Below are positions 24,985-29,152 of a stretch of 64,000 nucleotides of DNA, piece by piece. Position numbers and translations under genes: made by a program. A model generated the notes under the pieces. That model worked only from the letters and a program-made list of their open reading frames with translations, had not been told where the DNA came from and made no database searches. Origin of the DNA: Pyrinomonadaceae bacterium (GTDB taxonomy: Bacteria > Acidobacteriota > Blastocatellia > Pyrinomonadales > Pyrinomonadaceae); the NCBI GenBank assembly GCA_028284415.1, contig JANQRU010000006.1, positions 186,001 to 250,000 on the forward strand, read 5' to 3'. Position 1 is the stretch's first letter. Each line of letters starts with the position of its first letter.

Positions 24985-25314
24985 TTAAAACCCGCGGGAA
25001 CTACACATCGAACAATGATCACAAGGCTTGCCGTTTGGCTCAAACGTGCAAGTCTTTTGTGCGTCTTGATTTTCAAACACTTCATCAACAATTGCTTCGA
25101 TGACATCGTATTTATCCAAACTTGGATGATTAGAGTGGTGAGTGGTAAGTGGTAAGTGGTGAGTATTTTTGTTTAATTTACCTTCAATAGAATCTAAACG
25201 GTCATTAATTTTTCCAATGCTTTCTTGAATTGAATGCAAATCACTAGCTTGCGAATCATTATCTAAAAGATTTGCAATTTTTTCAGCTAATTTTTGAGTT
25301 TTCTCATTAGACAT
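24985..25314 (-). CDS. Small Cys-rich protein at the end of the BMC operon
   Basis: 109 aa, family not recognised. Order: an N-terminal heptad-rich helix (about 3-48, IGKINDRLDSIEGKL), a His/Thr linker 51-60 (THHLPLTTHH) encoded by four 7-bp DNA repeats, a predicted amphipathic helix 66-82 (LDKYDVIEAIVDEVFE), and a C-terminal Cys cluster with C89, C98, C101, C104 and H100 (KPCDHCSMCSSRGF). The Cys cluster looks like a metal or cluster site. The amphipathic helix resembles BMC encapsulation peptides. It starts three bases after the last pentamer gene, so it belongs to the operon. It could be cargo, an adaptor to the shell, or an electron carrier; none is shown. Confidence 0.7.
   Translation of the reverse strand: MSNEKTQKLAEKIANLLDNDSQASDLHSIQESIGKINDRLDSIEGKLNKNTHHLPLTTHHSNHPSLDKYDVIEAIVDEVFENQDAQKTCTFEPNGKPCDHCSMCSSRGF
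25134..25161 (+). repeat. Four 7-bp tandem repeats inside the BMC Cys-rich gene
   Basis: Four exact-phase heptamers AGTGGTG, AGTGGTA, AGTGGTA, AGTGGTG followed by a fifth AGT. They encode, on the minus strand, residues 51-60 of the Cys-rich protein in frame. Confidence 0.8.
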
Positions 25315-25317
25315 CTT

Positions 25318-25629
25318 TTACTTTTTGCCTTTCACCCTTTTACTTCTTTTATCTTCGGGTAACAAATCAACATAGTCAACCACGCCAACAATTGCTGAGT
25401 CAATCGCTGCTCCAGGTCTGCTGGTTGCTGCGGTTGAAGCACTAAAACCTTCTCTAGCAATAATTACAACGTCGCCTTCACCTGCATCAACGGCATCGAG
25501 TGCAAGCAAGGTTGTCTTTGTATCTTCCAATTCAGGCGTAAGTTGCCGACACAACATAATCCGCGAACCTTCGTAACGTTGATTTTTCTGTGTCGCAACT
25601 ACATTTCCGATTACTCTTGCAATTAACAT
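25318..25629 (-). CDS. BMC pentameric shell protein (EutN/CcmL/BMC-P), third copy
   Basis: 103 aa. EutN/CcmL fold shown by MLIARVIGNVVATQKN at the N-terminus, LLALDAVDAGEGDVVIIARE in the middle and DSAIVGVVDYVDLL at the end. Such proteins form pentamers that cap the vertices of the microcompartment shell. It has a longer basic tail (DKRSKRVKGKK) than its two paralogs. Weak SD (AAGAG very close to the ATG). It follows the second BMC-P gene by 71 bases containing 7-bp repeats. Confidence 0.93.
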   Translation of the reverse strand: MLIARVIGNVVATQKNQRYEGSRIMLCRQLTPELEDTKTTLLALDAVDAGEGDVVIIAREGFSASTAATSRPGAAIDSAIVGVVDYVDLLPEDKRSKRVKGKK

Positions 25630-25684: not shown

Positions 25685-25712
25685 GCTAACTGCTCACTGC
25701 TTACTGTTCACT
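25685..25712 (-). repeat. Four 7-bp tandem repeats between two pentamer genes
   Basis: Heptamers GCTAACT, GCTCACT, GCTTACT, GTTCACT on the plus strand (AGT-initial on the minus strand). They fill part of the 71-base gap between the second and third BMC-P genes and belong to the same degenerate family as the other arrays in the window. Confidence 0.7.
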
Positions 25713-25982
25713 GTTATATATATGTGAATCTGAATCAATTATCGCAATAATTGTGCAATCTGTCGGAGTAGCGTCTCTTTTAAATGGAAAAGAAGCCTCT
25801 TTTCCACGACACCAAAAAACCAATTCTCCAACTCCGGCACCGATTGCATCTAATGCAACCAAAGGTTTTCCAACAGGTTCTAGCTTTTCATTCAGATTTT
25901 GCACAAGCATAATCTTTCGCCCTTTGAGCGATTCATTCTTAATTGTAGAAACTACATTTCCGATTACTCGTGCAAGCTGCAT
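25701..25982 (-). CDS. BMC pentameric shell protein (EutN/CcmL/BMC-P), second copy
   Basis: 93 aa. MQLARVIGNVVSTIKNESLK, LVALDAIGAGVGELVFWCRG and CTIIAIIDSDSHI mark a BMC-P vertex protein. Its ATG directly follows the stop codon of the DoxX gene (TAAATG), so its translation is probably coupled to doxX; a purine-rich AGAAGAG in the doxX end may serve as ribosome-binding site. The last codons overlap the 7-bp repeat array (the stop is at 25701-25703), so the very C-terminus (HIYNSEQ) is repeat-derived and probably not conserved. Confidence 0.93.
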   Translation of the reverse strand: MQLARVIGNVVSTIKNESLKGRKIMLVQNLNEKLEPVGKPLVALDAIGAGVGELVFWCRGKEASFPFKRDATPTDCTIIAIIDSDSHIYNSEQ

Positions 25983-26378
25983 TTACTCTTCTGATTGTCT
26001 GAAATGTGAAAAAGCTAGAGCTAAAAATAATGCGATAAGCAAAACGCTATATTCAATACCGTTTCGCCCTGCTCCGACTACGAACCAACCTTCTTTCAAA
26101 TGAACAAGAAAAATTCCAAACAATAGGTGTATGGAAAAAATAATAGCAATTGGAGTTACAAAAAAACCAATCGCTAAAAAAAGACTTCCAACAATTTCAA
26201 AAATCGTAATTCCCCAAGCTAAATAAAATCCAAGTGGAAGACTGTAAAGTGTTAAAAACTCACCAAAATCATCTACGATTCCCAAATAAATCCGTGCAAT
26301 TCCATGTATAAAAAGCAAAACAGCAACAACTATACGCAAGAATGTGAGTGCATAAGTTTGTTGCTGATGTTTATTCAT
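25983..26378 (-). CDS. DoxX-family membrane protein embedded in the BMC operon
   Basis: 131 aa with four membrane segments. DoxX features: TFLRIVVAVLLFIHGIARI, an E in the second-third helix region (ITIFEIVGSLFLAIGF), HLKEGWFVVGAGRNGIEYSV. DoxX proteins sit in the inner membrane and are linked to sulfur or redox metabolism in a few cases; most are uncharacterised. Its start overlaps the end of the first BMC-P gene by four bases and its stop abuts the start of the second, so it is translationally locked into the shell-gene order. A membrane protein inside a BMC operon is unexpected, and whether it works with the compartment is unknown. Confidence 0.85.
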   Translation of the reverse strand: MNKHQQQTYALTFLRIVVAVLLFIHGIARIYLGIVDDFGEFLTLYSLPLGFYLAWGITIFEIVGSLFLAIGFFVTPIAIIFSIHLLFGIFLVHLKEGWFVVGAGRNGIEYSVLLIALFLALAFSHFRQSEE

Positions 26379-26653
26379 TTTTCGGGAGTTACATAATCAA
26401 TCGTATCAATTACGCCAACAATCGCTGTATCAACCGGGCAATCTTTATTTCCTTCAGCCATACGTGCTGATGAACCACCAACGAGCAAAACTTTTTCGTG
26501 AAAGCCTGCACCAACGGTATCAACCGCGACGACATAATCATCGCGGTCGGTTCCGTCTAAATTAATTGGCTTGCAAACTAGAAGTTTTTTGCCTCTCAGA
26601 CGCTCATCTTTTTGTGTGGAAACGACTGTTCCCAAAATTCTGGCGATACGCAT
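26375..26653 (-). CDS. BMC pentameric shell protein (EutN/CcmL/BMC-P), first copy
   Basis: 92 aa. MRIARILGTVVSTQKDERLR, VVAVDTVGAGFHEKVLLVGG and DTAIVGVIDTIDYV mark a BMC-P protein. It starts 77 bases after the hexamer gene without a visible Shine-Dalgarno sequence, and the intervening RNA can fold into a long hairpin. Both features would keep pentamer synthesis below hexamer synthesis, as expected for shells needing few vertices and many facets; that is an inference. Confidence 0.93.
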   Translation of the reverse strand: MRIARILGTVVSTQKDERLRGKKLLVCKPINLDGTDRDDYVVAVDTVGAGFHEKVLLVGGSSARMAEGNKDCPVDTAIVGVIDTIDYVTPEK

Positions 26654-26730: not shown

Positions 26731-27012
26731 TTAATCAGACAAGGCTACGGGTAAGTTTTCGTCAACGCTTCCATGTGGTCTTGGGATTACGTGAACACTT
26801 ACGAGTTCACCAACACGTCTTGCCGCGGCGGCACCTGCATCGGTCGCAGCTTTAACGGCAGCAACATCTCCGCGAACAATAGCAGTTACAAATCCCGCAC
26901 CAATTTTTTCGTAACCAACCAAATGAACATTTGCCGCTTTGACCATCGCATCTGAGGCTTCGATCATTGCCACAAGTCCTTTTGTTTCAACCATTCCTAA
27001 TGCTTCTTGCAT
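26731..27012 (-). CDS. BMC hexameric shell protein (BMC-H)
   Basis: 93 aa single BMC domain. [20 protein letters not shown] at the start, the pore-loop sequence KIGAG (compare KIGSG in PduA), [20 protein letters not shown] and VHVIPRPH near the end are canonical. Hexamers of this protein tile the shell facets and their central pores pass substrates. It is the only BMC-H gene here and no tandem-domain BMC-T gene is present. A good SD (CAGGAG, about nine bases before ATG) suggests it is the best-translated shell gene. It follows the aldolase by 57 bases. Confidence 0.97.
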
Positions 27013-27069: not shown

Positions 27070-27873
27070 TTATTGATTCAAATGTACAACTTGATTTAGA
27101 AGTTCGATAAGCTCTTCCCGAGTGAAAGAAATTTTTGCACCATTTGAGTTTCCATTATCATTGGATTGAACGTCAAGCTCGCAAGTTATGTTTGTATCGT
27201 GCAAATATCCACAGGATTGACAGCGTGCGGAAGAATCAAGATAACCTGCTTTTTCTCTGATGTTAATTAACTTTTCGATAGCGTCTGACGGTAGATTATT
27301 TGTGTTTCCTAAAGCTCTCGAAAGTATTGCAATTTTTGCGGTGTGTTCGAGCGTTTCCATTCTGTCCCAAGCTTCCCACAAATCTTTTCCGTAAGCGACA
27401 GCTCCGTGATTTGCCATCAAAAGTGCGTTGTGATGCGGAACAAACGGCTTCATTGATTCGGTCAATTCATCGGTCGAGGGAGTTCCGTAATCCGTTAAAG
27501 GAACACAACCGAGAGTTAATATAACCTCTGATAAGATCGGCTGTTCAATTGCCAAACCTGCCACGGAAAAAGCTGTTCCATGCGGCGGATGTGCATGACA
27601 AACGGCGTGGATATCGGGGCGCATTTTGTAAATCAAAAGGTGCATTGCAAGCTCAGAAGACGCTTTATTTTCATTCAAAGCATTGCCGTCCATGTCTGTG
27701 ATCGCTAAACCATCTTCGGTCATACGCCCTTTTGAGGTCATTGTCGGAGTCGCTAAAACCCGATTCTCATCTAGACGTATGCTCACATTGCCGTCTGAAG
27801 ACACAACATAGCTGCGTTCATACATCAAATGTCCGACTTCAATGACTAATTTTCTTGCTTCTGATTCTTTCAC
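27070..27873 (-). CDS. Class II (FucA-type) aldolase with C-terminal Cys motif and possible encapsulation helix
   Basis: 267 aa. Zinc-dependent class II aldolase/adducin family; relatives cleave L-fuculose- or L-rhamnulose-1-phosphate to DHAP and lactaldehyde. Likely metal ligands are H93, H95 (HAHPPHG) and H156 (ANHGAV) with catalytic E74 (SSELAMH). After the enzymatic core (to about 212) is a Cys segment C218, C221, C231 with H225, then a flexible Asn/Gly/Ser linker and an amphipathic helix 249-265 (SFTREELIELLNQVVHLN), the layout of a BMC encapsulation peptide. The start is a GTG at 27873 with no clear SD. It heads the BMC operon and is its only enzyme. Substrate is inferred from the family, not shown. 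Confidence 0.85.
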   Translation of the reverse strand: MKESEARKLVIEVGHLMYERSYVVSSDGNVSIRLDENRVLATPTMTSKGRMTEDGLAITDMDGNALNENKASSELAMHLLIYKMRPDIHAVCHAHPPHGTAFSVAGLAIEQPILSEVILTLGCVPLTDYGTPSTDELTESMKPFVPHHNALLMANHGAVAYGKDLWEAWDRMETLEHTAKIAILSRALGNTNNLPSDAIEKLINIREKAGYLDSSARCQSCGYLHDTNITCELDVQSNDNGNSNGAKISFTREELIELLNQVVHLNQ

Positions 27874-27907: not shown

Positions 27908-27981
27908 AAGCCACAGATTAACACAGATGAATACGCTTGGAGAAATTTCCAAAGTTATTCATCTGTGCCAATCTGTGGCTT
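27908..27981. repeat. Long inverted repeat (74 bp) upstream of the BMC operon
   Basis: Two 26-base arms, 27908-27933 and 27956-27981, are reverse complements apart from two adjacent mismatches; the 22-base centre has a further inner stem (TTGGA/TCCAA). The arm contains the direct-repeat words CCACAGATT and CACAGATGAA, a sequence type I recall as scattered intergenic repeats in several phyla. It lies 25 bases past the stop of the small membrane protein gene and before the aldolase start, so it may also separate the two transcripts. Confidence 0.75.
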
Positions 27982-28006: not shown

Positions 28007-28300
28007 CTATTTTTTCTCAACTACAACGGGAGGAACAAGATTAATAATATCTTTCTTTTGTTTTGCCTCGCGGCGTTCTCTCATTTTCCTTTCCCATTTC
28101 AGACGGCAATTTTCTCTCTTTAGTCGTCTGTTTTCCATTTTCAATTTAAAGCTTTCATATCTTTCAGAGCTTTTATAGCTTCTTGTGCTATTAGTGTTTG
28201 CTTGTCCTGTTAAGCCCAAGACCAAGCTCGCAACAAAAAGTCCTACAGCAAAAGTTAAAACAAATGGAACTATTCTTTTTACAAATTCTAAATAACGCAT
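28007..28300 (-). CDS. Small membrane-anchored basic coiled-coil protein
   Basis: 97 aa, not recognised. One N-terminal membrane segment (about 7-30, FVKRIVPFVLTFAVGLFVAS) then a very basic helix (about 43-80, FKLKMENRRLKRENCRLKWE, then RKMRERREAKQKK) and a hydrophobic end (LVPPVVVEKK). It lies 74 bases after rex and upstream of the BMC operon, all minus strand. It may be an envelope or periplasmic scaffold; no function can be assigned. The coding signal is convincing for its length because of its defined membrane and coiled-coil parts. Confidence 0.6.
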   Translation of the reverse strand: MRYLEFVKRIVPFVLTFAVGLFVASLVLGLTGQANTNSTRSYKSSERYESFKLKMENRRLKRENCRLKWERKMRERREAKQKKDIINLVPPVVVEKK

Positions 28301-28374: not shown

Positions 28375-29022
28375 TCAGTTATTTCCGTTTATATTGTTCA
28401 CATGTGATAAAAAGTAAGACAAACTTTCCAATGAAATAGTTAAATCAATCGTTTTTAATTTAACTCCATCGTGGACACGCAAAGGTGTCGGTGCAAAGTT
28501 CATCACGGCTTTTATCCCTGATTTTGTAACCTCTTCCAAAACGCTTTGTGCAAATTGGGCAGGTACGGCAATAACCGCTACGTCTATTTTATCTTTTTTG
28601 GCAACTTTAGCAAAATTTTTGAATGCGAATACATCAACATCACCTATTCGCTGACCAATTTTGCCCTTATCATTGTCAAAAAGTGCGACAACATCAAAAT
28701 TAGTTTGCGTAAATCCATAGTAGTCTGCCAAAGCTGTTCCCAAACGCCCTGCACCAATTATCCCAACCCGATGATTTTTATCTAAGCCAAGAATTTTTTG
28801 CAGATGATCGCGTAAATCCTCGACGTAATAGCCGACTCCACGAACACCAAACTCACCAAAACAAGCCAGGTCTTTACGAATCTGTGCTGAATTCAAATGA
28901 AAACGCTCGGCAAGTTTGTCAGACGAAACTGTCCTTTTCCCTTCTGCAAGCAATTCATTCAAACAACGCAGATAGACACTCAAACGATTGGTGGTTAATT
29001 CTGATATTTTCTCTACTTTCAT
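28375..29022 (-). CDS. rex: Redox-sensing transcriptional repressor Rex
   Basis: 215 aa. N-terminal winged helix (ISELTTNRLSVYLRCLNEL, then LNSAQIRKDLACFGEFGVRG, the Rex recognition region) and a Rossmann NAD(H)-binding domain with VGIIGAGRLGTALADY; C-terminal swapped helix at the end. Rex binds DNA when NAD+ is high and lets go when NADH rises, controlling fermentation and respiration genes. A Rex-type operator overlaps its own promoter. It is the first of a same-strand series running into the BMC genes, suggesting that BMC metabolism could be under redox control, though no operator is visible in front of the aldolase. Confidence 0.95.
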   Translation of the reverse strand: MKVEKISELTTNRLSVYLRCLNELLAEGKRTVSSDKLAERFHLNSAQIRKDLACFGEFGVRGVGYYVEDLRDHLQKILGLDKNHRVGIIGAGRLGTALADYYGFTQTNFDVVALFDNDKGKIGQRIGDVDVFAFKNFAKVAKKDKIDVAVIAVPAQFAQSVLEEVTKSGIKAVMNFAPTPLRVHDGVKLKTIDLTISLESLSYFLSHVNNINGNN

Positions 29023-29033
29023 CTATTTGAGAT

Positions 29034-29063
29034 ATTATAGTCTAAATTTTCTAATTGTGAAAA
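29034..29063 (-). promoter_or_regulatory. Candidate rex promoter
   Basis: On the minus strand a perfect TATAAT (29039-29034) with TTTTCA (29063-29058) 18 bases upstream. The -10 is 11 bases from the start codon of rex, so the leader would be very short. The -35 overlaps the Rex-type operator. Confidence 0.5.
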
Positions 29064-29072
29064 AGGTTACAA
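29055..29072. promoter_or_regulatory. Candidate Rex operator
   Basis: TTGTGA-6 bases-TTACAA, an 18-bp near-perfect palindrome with the half-sites and spacing of known Rex boxes (TTGTGA-n6-TCACAA). It covers the -35 of the candidate rex promoter, fitting autorepression. It also lies upstream of ruvA on the other strand, but 30 bases ahead of that promoter. Confidence 0.7.
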
Positions 29073-29130: not shown

Positions 29131-29152
29131 CCTGTTTCATACTTGAAACATT

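Follow-up and report, generated by a model that had tools for sequence, protein, structure and literature searches.

A predicted autoregulatory Rex operator within a probable, mainly respiratory Rex regulon, beside an ACI-type microcompartment locus in Pyrinomonadaceae

Introduction

Operators of the redox-sensing repressor Rex (ROPs) have been described in Gram-positive bacteria, including the ROP of S. aureus, TTGTGAAW4TTCACAA (PMC2883068), and that of S. avermitilis (PMC5355995). The candidate operator described here has in common with these sites its half-site sequence, 6-bp core spacing and overlap with a promoter, and it resembles them in autoregulation, which is a prediction in the present case, and in having an NADH dehydrogenase among its targets. 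It differs in its Acidobacteriota host, in one mismatch and in the microcompartment (BMC) locus that adjoins it, and the site here is predicted from sequence.

The adjoining locus finds its closest counterpart in the ACI-type BMC (PMC8217296), with which it shares a class II aldolase with a C-terminal extension, BMC-H, three BMC-P, and an AldDH with a BMC-H on a satellite locus in Acidobacteria. Neither Rex nor an operator is mentioned in the text of that paper as covered here. The nine genes that run from rex to position 24985 do not include a hydroxyacid dehydrogenase, a further enzyme of the ACI type. No relevant paper in the literature collection that was searched treats Rex together with BMCs.

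Results

The gene rex (28375–29022, minus strand) encodes a redox-sensing repressor with a winged-helix N-terminus and an NAD(H)-binding Rossmann domain. Its identity is given by Rex family models and solved structures: the product scores 254 bits against the NCBIfam subfamily model and exceeds the cut-off of the equivalog model, and PDB Rex chains match it down to 8e-46. The best promoter match across 24.9–29.3 kb lies before this gene, on the minus strand (29034–29061), with a −35 of TTCACA (29061–29056), a 16-bp spacer and a −10 of TATAAT (29039–29034), for 11 of 12 promoter positions.

Within the window (the whole 64-kb stretch of DNA analysed), TTGTGA-n6-TTACAA occurs exactly once, as an 18-bp inverted repeat at 29055–29072 (TTGTGAAAAAGGTTACAA; no strand assigned). 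The repeat agrees with TTGTGA-n6-TCACAA at 11 of 12 positions, with one mismatch, and under a first-order Markov model the probability of a site with at most one mismatch within the 130-bp rex-ruvA intergenic region is P = 0.0014. The −35 of the rex promoter falls inside the repeat, so that both the Rex-box palindrome and its overlap with the −35 stand as originally predicted, the former now with a conserved dyad. By base match alone, the palindrome would make a weak case, as 21 sites in the 5.0-Mb genome differ from the motif at no more than one position, versus 14 for the reversed control, a mild enrichment; we therefore base the operator call on position and conservation rather than on base match by itself. 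Taken on these grounds, 29055–29072 is very probably a real operator.

Conservation was assessed in 20 rex upstream regions of the same family, picked solely for the right half, TTCAC. At a spacer of 6, the left half TTGTGA was matched at 4.4 of 6 positions on average, compared with 0.55–2.45 of 6 at the other tested spacers (2–13), and none of 20,000 shuffles reached the observed spacer-6 value (p = 5e-5). All 20 relatives have the left-half G and its partner C. Several genomes place the site just 7–10 bp from the −10, and a −35 role therefore cannot explain its conservation. In another collection of 72 rex upstream regions, which overlaps the 20 relatives, 14 have a site with at most two mismatches versus 0.55 expected from shuffles. 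In GC-rich genera of the Pyrinomonadaceae, rex is present and the 200 bp before it contain no recognisable box, and autoregulation by the TTGTGA-n6-TCACAA motif is accordingly not universal in the family.

Pattern searches of genomes gave a sketch of the regulon. Sites with no more than one mismatch to the motif, versus its reversed control, numbered 12 versus 4, 11 versus 4 and 25 versus 9 in three relatives, and 69 versus 31 when pooled over four genomes. In the genome studied here, one intergenic site lies 40 bp before the type-2 NADH dehydrogenase gene (ndh). Of 20 genomes with rex, 7 have a box 49–57 bp before the ndh start codon, compared with none of 10 genomes lacking rex (Fisher p 0.038), a contrast confounded by genus because rex-bearing members of the rex-poor genus likewise have no ndh box. 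Targets common to several genomes are rex, ndh, UDP-glucose dehydrogenase (ugd; box found in three genomes) and a multihaem cytochrome c; sites close to the alternative complex III (ActD) and Rieske genes turn up in single genomes. This motif set resembles a largely classical, mainly respiratory Rex regulon of Pyrinomonadaceae, and this classical-like target set is the best evidence for assigning the motif to Rex. In the genome scan suggested with the original prediction, the motif recurs before ndh, and its own genome is just mildly enriched. Autorepression, also part of that prediction, draws support from the dyad and its spacing among the 20 relatives, the ndh box and the recurring respiratory targets, and autoregulation of rex through 29055–29072 appears very likely.

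Other inverted repeats were observed in the same setting. A conserved palindrome, TGTTTCA-n4-TGAAACA (29133–29150), lies over the ruvA promoter, TTGCCC-17-TACAAT. When one mismatch is allowed, the genome has 18 such sites and the reversed control 2; among the 18 are sites upstream of genes for an umuC-like polymerase, a UmuD-like S24 peptidase, DNA alkylation repair and a Rad52-like protein. The palindrome is probably a DNA-damage (SOS) box of the lineage, and no copy was found near the best LexA homologue (G000:C8:664532). Upstream of rex in other acidobacterial families (L263–L277), there is often a different inverted repeat, CTTGTGAA-n-GAACAAG, 26–47 bp before the start codon.

The genes that follow rex run in its direction, on the minus strand, as had been claimed. 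A 97-aa small membrane protein (28007–28300), whose N-terminus is hydrophobic and for which Pfam and NCBIfam give no match, is kept between rex and the aldolase in many relatives. It is followed by the class II aldolase (pfam00596; 27070–27873), which has a C-terminal extension and is the signature enzyme of the ACI-type BMC (PMC8217296), and by genes for a BMC-H shell protein (26731–27012), three BMC-P shell vertex proteins (26375–26653, 25701–25982 and 25318–25629), a DoxX-family membrane protein within the operon (25983–26378) and an unknown 109-aa protein kept at the operon end (24985–25314). An Aldedh gene stands beside a second BMC-H at about 845.4–847.6 kb of G000:C8, in the manner of an ACI satellite. 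With this content, the locus agrees with the ACI type described by Sutter et al. 2021 (PMC8217296). The substrate of the ACI BMC is unknown (PMC8217296), and the lactaldehyde invoked in the original prediction is therefore an assumption.

Between the gene for the 97-aa protein and the aldolase, a 133-bp gap contains a conserved RNA hairpin, CCACAGATT...AATCTGTGG, with a 26-bp stem (27908–27981, minus strand), a T-rich tail and a fold z-score of −9.4. Many relatives have the same hairpin, CCACAGRTTAAC...GTTAATCTGTGG, immediately ahead of the aldolase start, and a T-rich stretch separates its stem from the start codon. Across an alignment of 16 sequences, 97.6% of cells are paired and two pairs have changed on both sides, with no comparable signal when the partner was slid. 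The 3′ arm, GTGTTAATCTGTGG, holds an extended −10-like motif, TGn-TAATCT, and remains at loci that no longer have the 5′ arm (L058, L066 and L159). Rfam returned nothing above threshold for the hairpin, with sub-threshold chance matches only. The element may be an attenuator or terminator, may serve in start control or may mark a separate promoter. Its presence weakens the simple picture of a BMC driven at full strength from the rex promoter. An abundant interspersed repeat was considered and rejected, as there are only five 3′-arm matches genome-wide; an inverted pair resembling it is present elsewhere (L169/L170), and an origin from a repeat is possible.

We compared 78 aldolase loci with enough flank; the relatives are Pyrinomonadaceae, of the class Blastocatellia. 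Wherever both genes were visible (54 of 54 loci), rex lies upstream of the aldolase on the same strand, at gaps of 36–1,533 bp that shorten to 36–104 bp in many relatives, and at the other 24 of the 78 the BMC is kept, ruvA is nearby and rex was not seen. Other families in the class have the order rex-aldolase-BMC-H as well, at L261, L262, L265 and L278; two of these four loci have no ruvA within 1.5 kb upstream, and the rex-BMC linkage therefore outlasts the ruv linkage there. The two genes likewise stay linked where ruvA is more than 4 kb away or not seen (L237, L246 and L249). Both ruvAB and lemA are conserved neighbours of the locus as well, and the comparison indicates that the rex-BMC neighbourhood is ancient and that ruvAB and lemA are old neighbours too. 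Most members of one genus (L149–L164; G084, G082, G074 and others) have lost rex, yet retain the BMC and the gene for the small membrane protein beside ruvA, often together with the hairpin.

Searches for further Rex boxes bear on how far the site reaches. The original prediction saw no second box before the aldolase, and this was borne out: the best candidate after the rex stop and ahead of the aldolase start has four mismatches, and at 66 loci the 110 bp preceding the aldolase hold none with three or fewer. No Rex box was found at the promoter of the satellite BMC-H/AldDH locus, and relatives with tight rex-aldolase spacing have none. Of the proposed regulatory link with the BMC, then, the linkage is real and old (54 of 54), but the reach of the box is opposed by the hairpin, the boxless satellite, the boxless relatives with tight spacing and the 24 loci without rex.

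Discussion

With considerable confidence, and judging from sequence comparisons, we propose an autoregulatory Rex operator at 29055–29072 that belongs to a mainly respiratory Rex regulon, with read-through into the BMC as a possibility. By analogy with the Rex family, Rex dimers would occupy the site at low NADH/NAD+ and obstruct RNA polymerase at the −35 that overlaps it; NADH would then release Rex, as family members suggest, and allow transcription of rex and the small membrane protein. The regulon of the same Rex in this family would be mainly respiratory, with genes for type-2 NADH dehydrogenase, UDP-glucose dehydrogenase, cytochromes and alternative complex III. Transcription of rex is directed into the ACI-type BMC operon, and some BMC transcription may follow the same signal by read-through, which the conserved hairpin just before the aldolase would probably limit. 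Control of the BMC by 29055–29072 through such read-through is predicted as possible, at a probability we place well short of even.

The alternatives differ mainly in what they make of the BMC. Somewhat under an even chance is our estimate for a frozen ancestral order, in which rex and the BMC are adjacent only as parts of a ruvB-ruvA-rex-BMC-lemA block and the BMC is regulated separately, at the hairpin or from a promoter within the hairpin's 3′ arm. The conserved ruvAB and lemA neighbours, the persistence of the BMC without rex, and a 3′ arm (GTGTTAATCTGTGG) that outlives the 5′ arm and carries TGn-TAATCT all speak for it, but rex and the aldolase are invariably on the same strand and remain linked with ruvA distant or not seen, also at L265/L278. 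Less probable, and tentative at best, is control of the whole rex-BMC operon by the Rex box, such that high NADH would induce the microcompartment and rex as a single transcript. This would suit the constant strand and order at 54 of 54 loci, the short gaps (36–104 bp) of many relatives, an order kept in other families even at the two loci without ruvA within 1.5 kb, and an operon preceded here by just one good promoter; against it stand the conserved hairpin with its T-rich tail ahead of the aldolase, the tight-spacing genera without a box, the 24 loci with a BMC and no rex, and the boxless satellite locus. A redox-sensor-led BMC operon of this kind, in which a rise in NADH would lead Rex to switch on the rex-BMC transcript and the hairpin would gate the share reaching the shell genes, we regard as unlikely. 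Finally, that the palindrome is a chance feature or merely a conserved −35 element is highly improbable: its right half does coincide with the −35 TTCACA in most relatives, and single sites with one mismatch are not rare genome-wide, but the left half is kept at the exact dyad spacing even for sites away from the −35, and the motif also stands before ndh and ugd in several genomes.

The ACI microcompartment is common in soil Acidobacteriota. A neighbouring, conserved NADH sensor with a recognisable candidate operator, together with a conserved hairpin before the first BMC gene, offers two direct and testable entry points, and the data outline a mainly respiratory Rex regulon for Pyrinomonadaceae.
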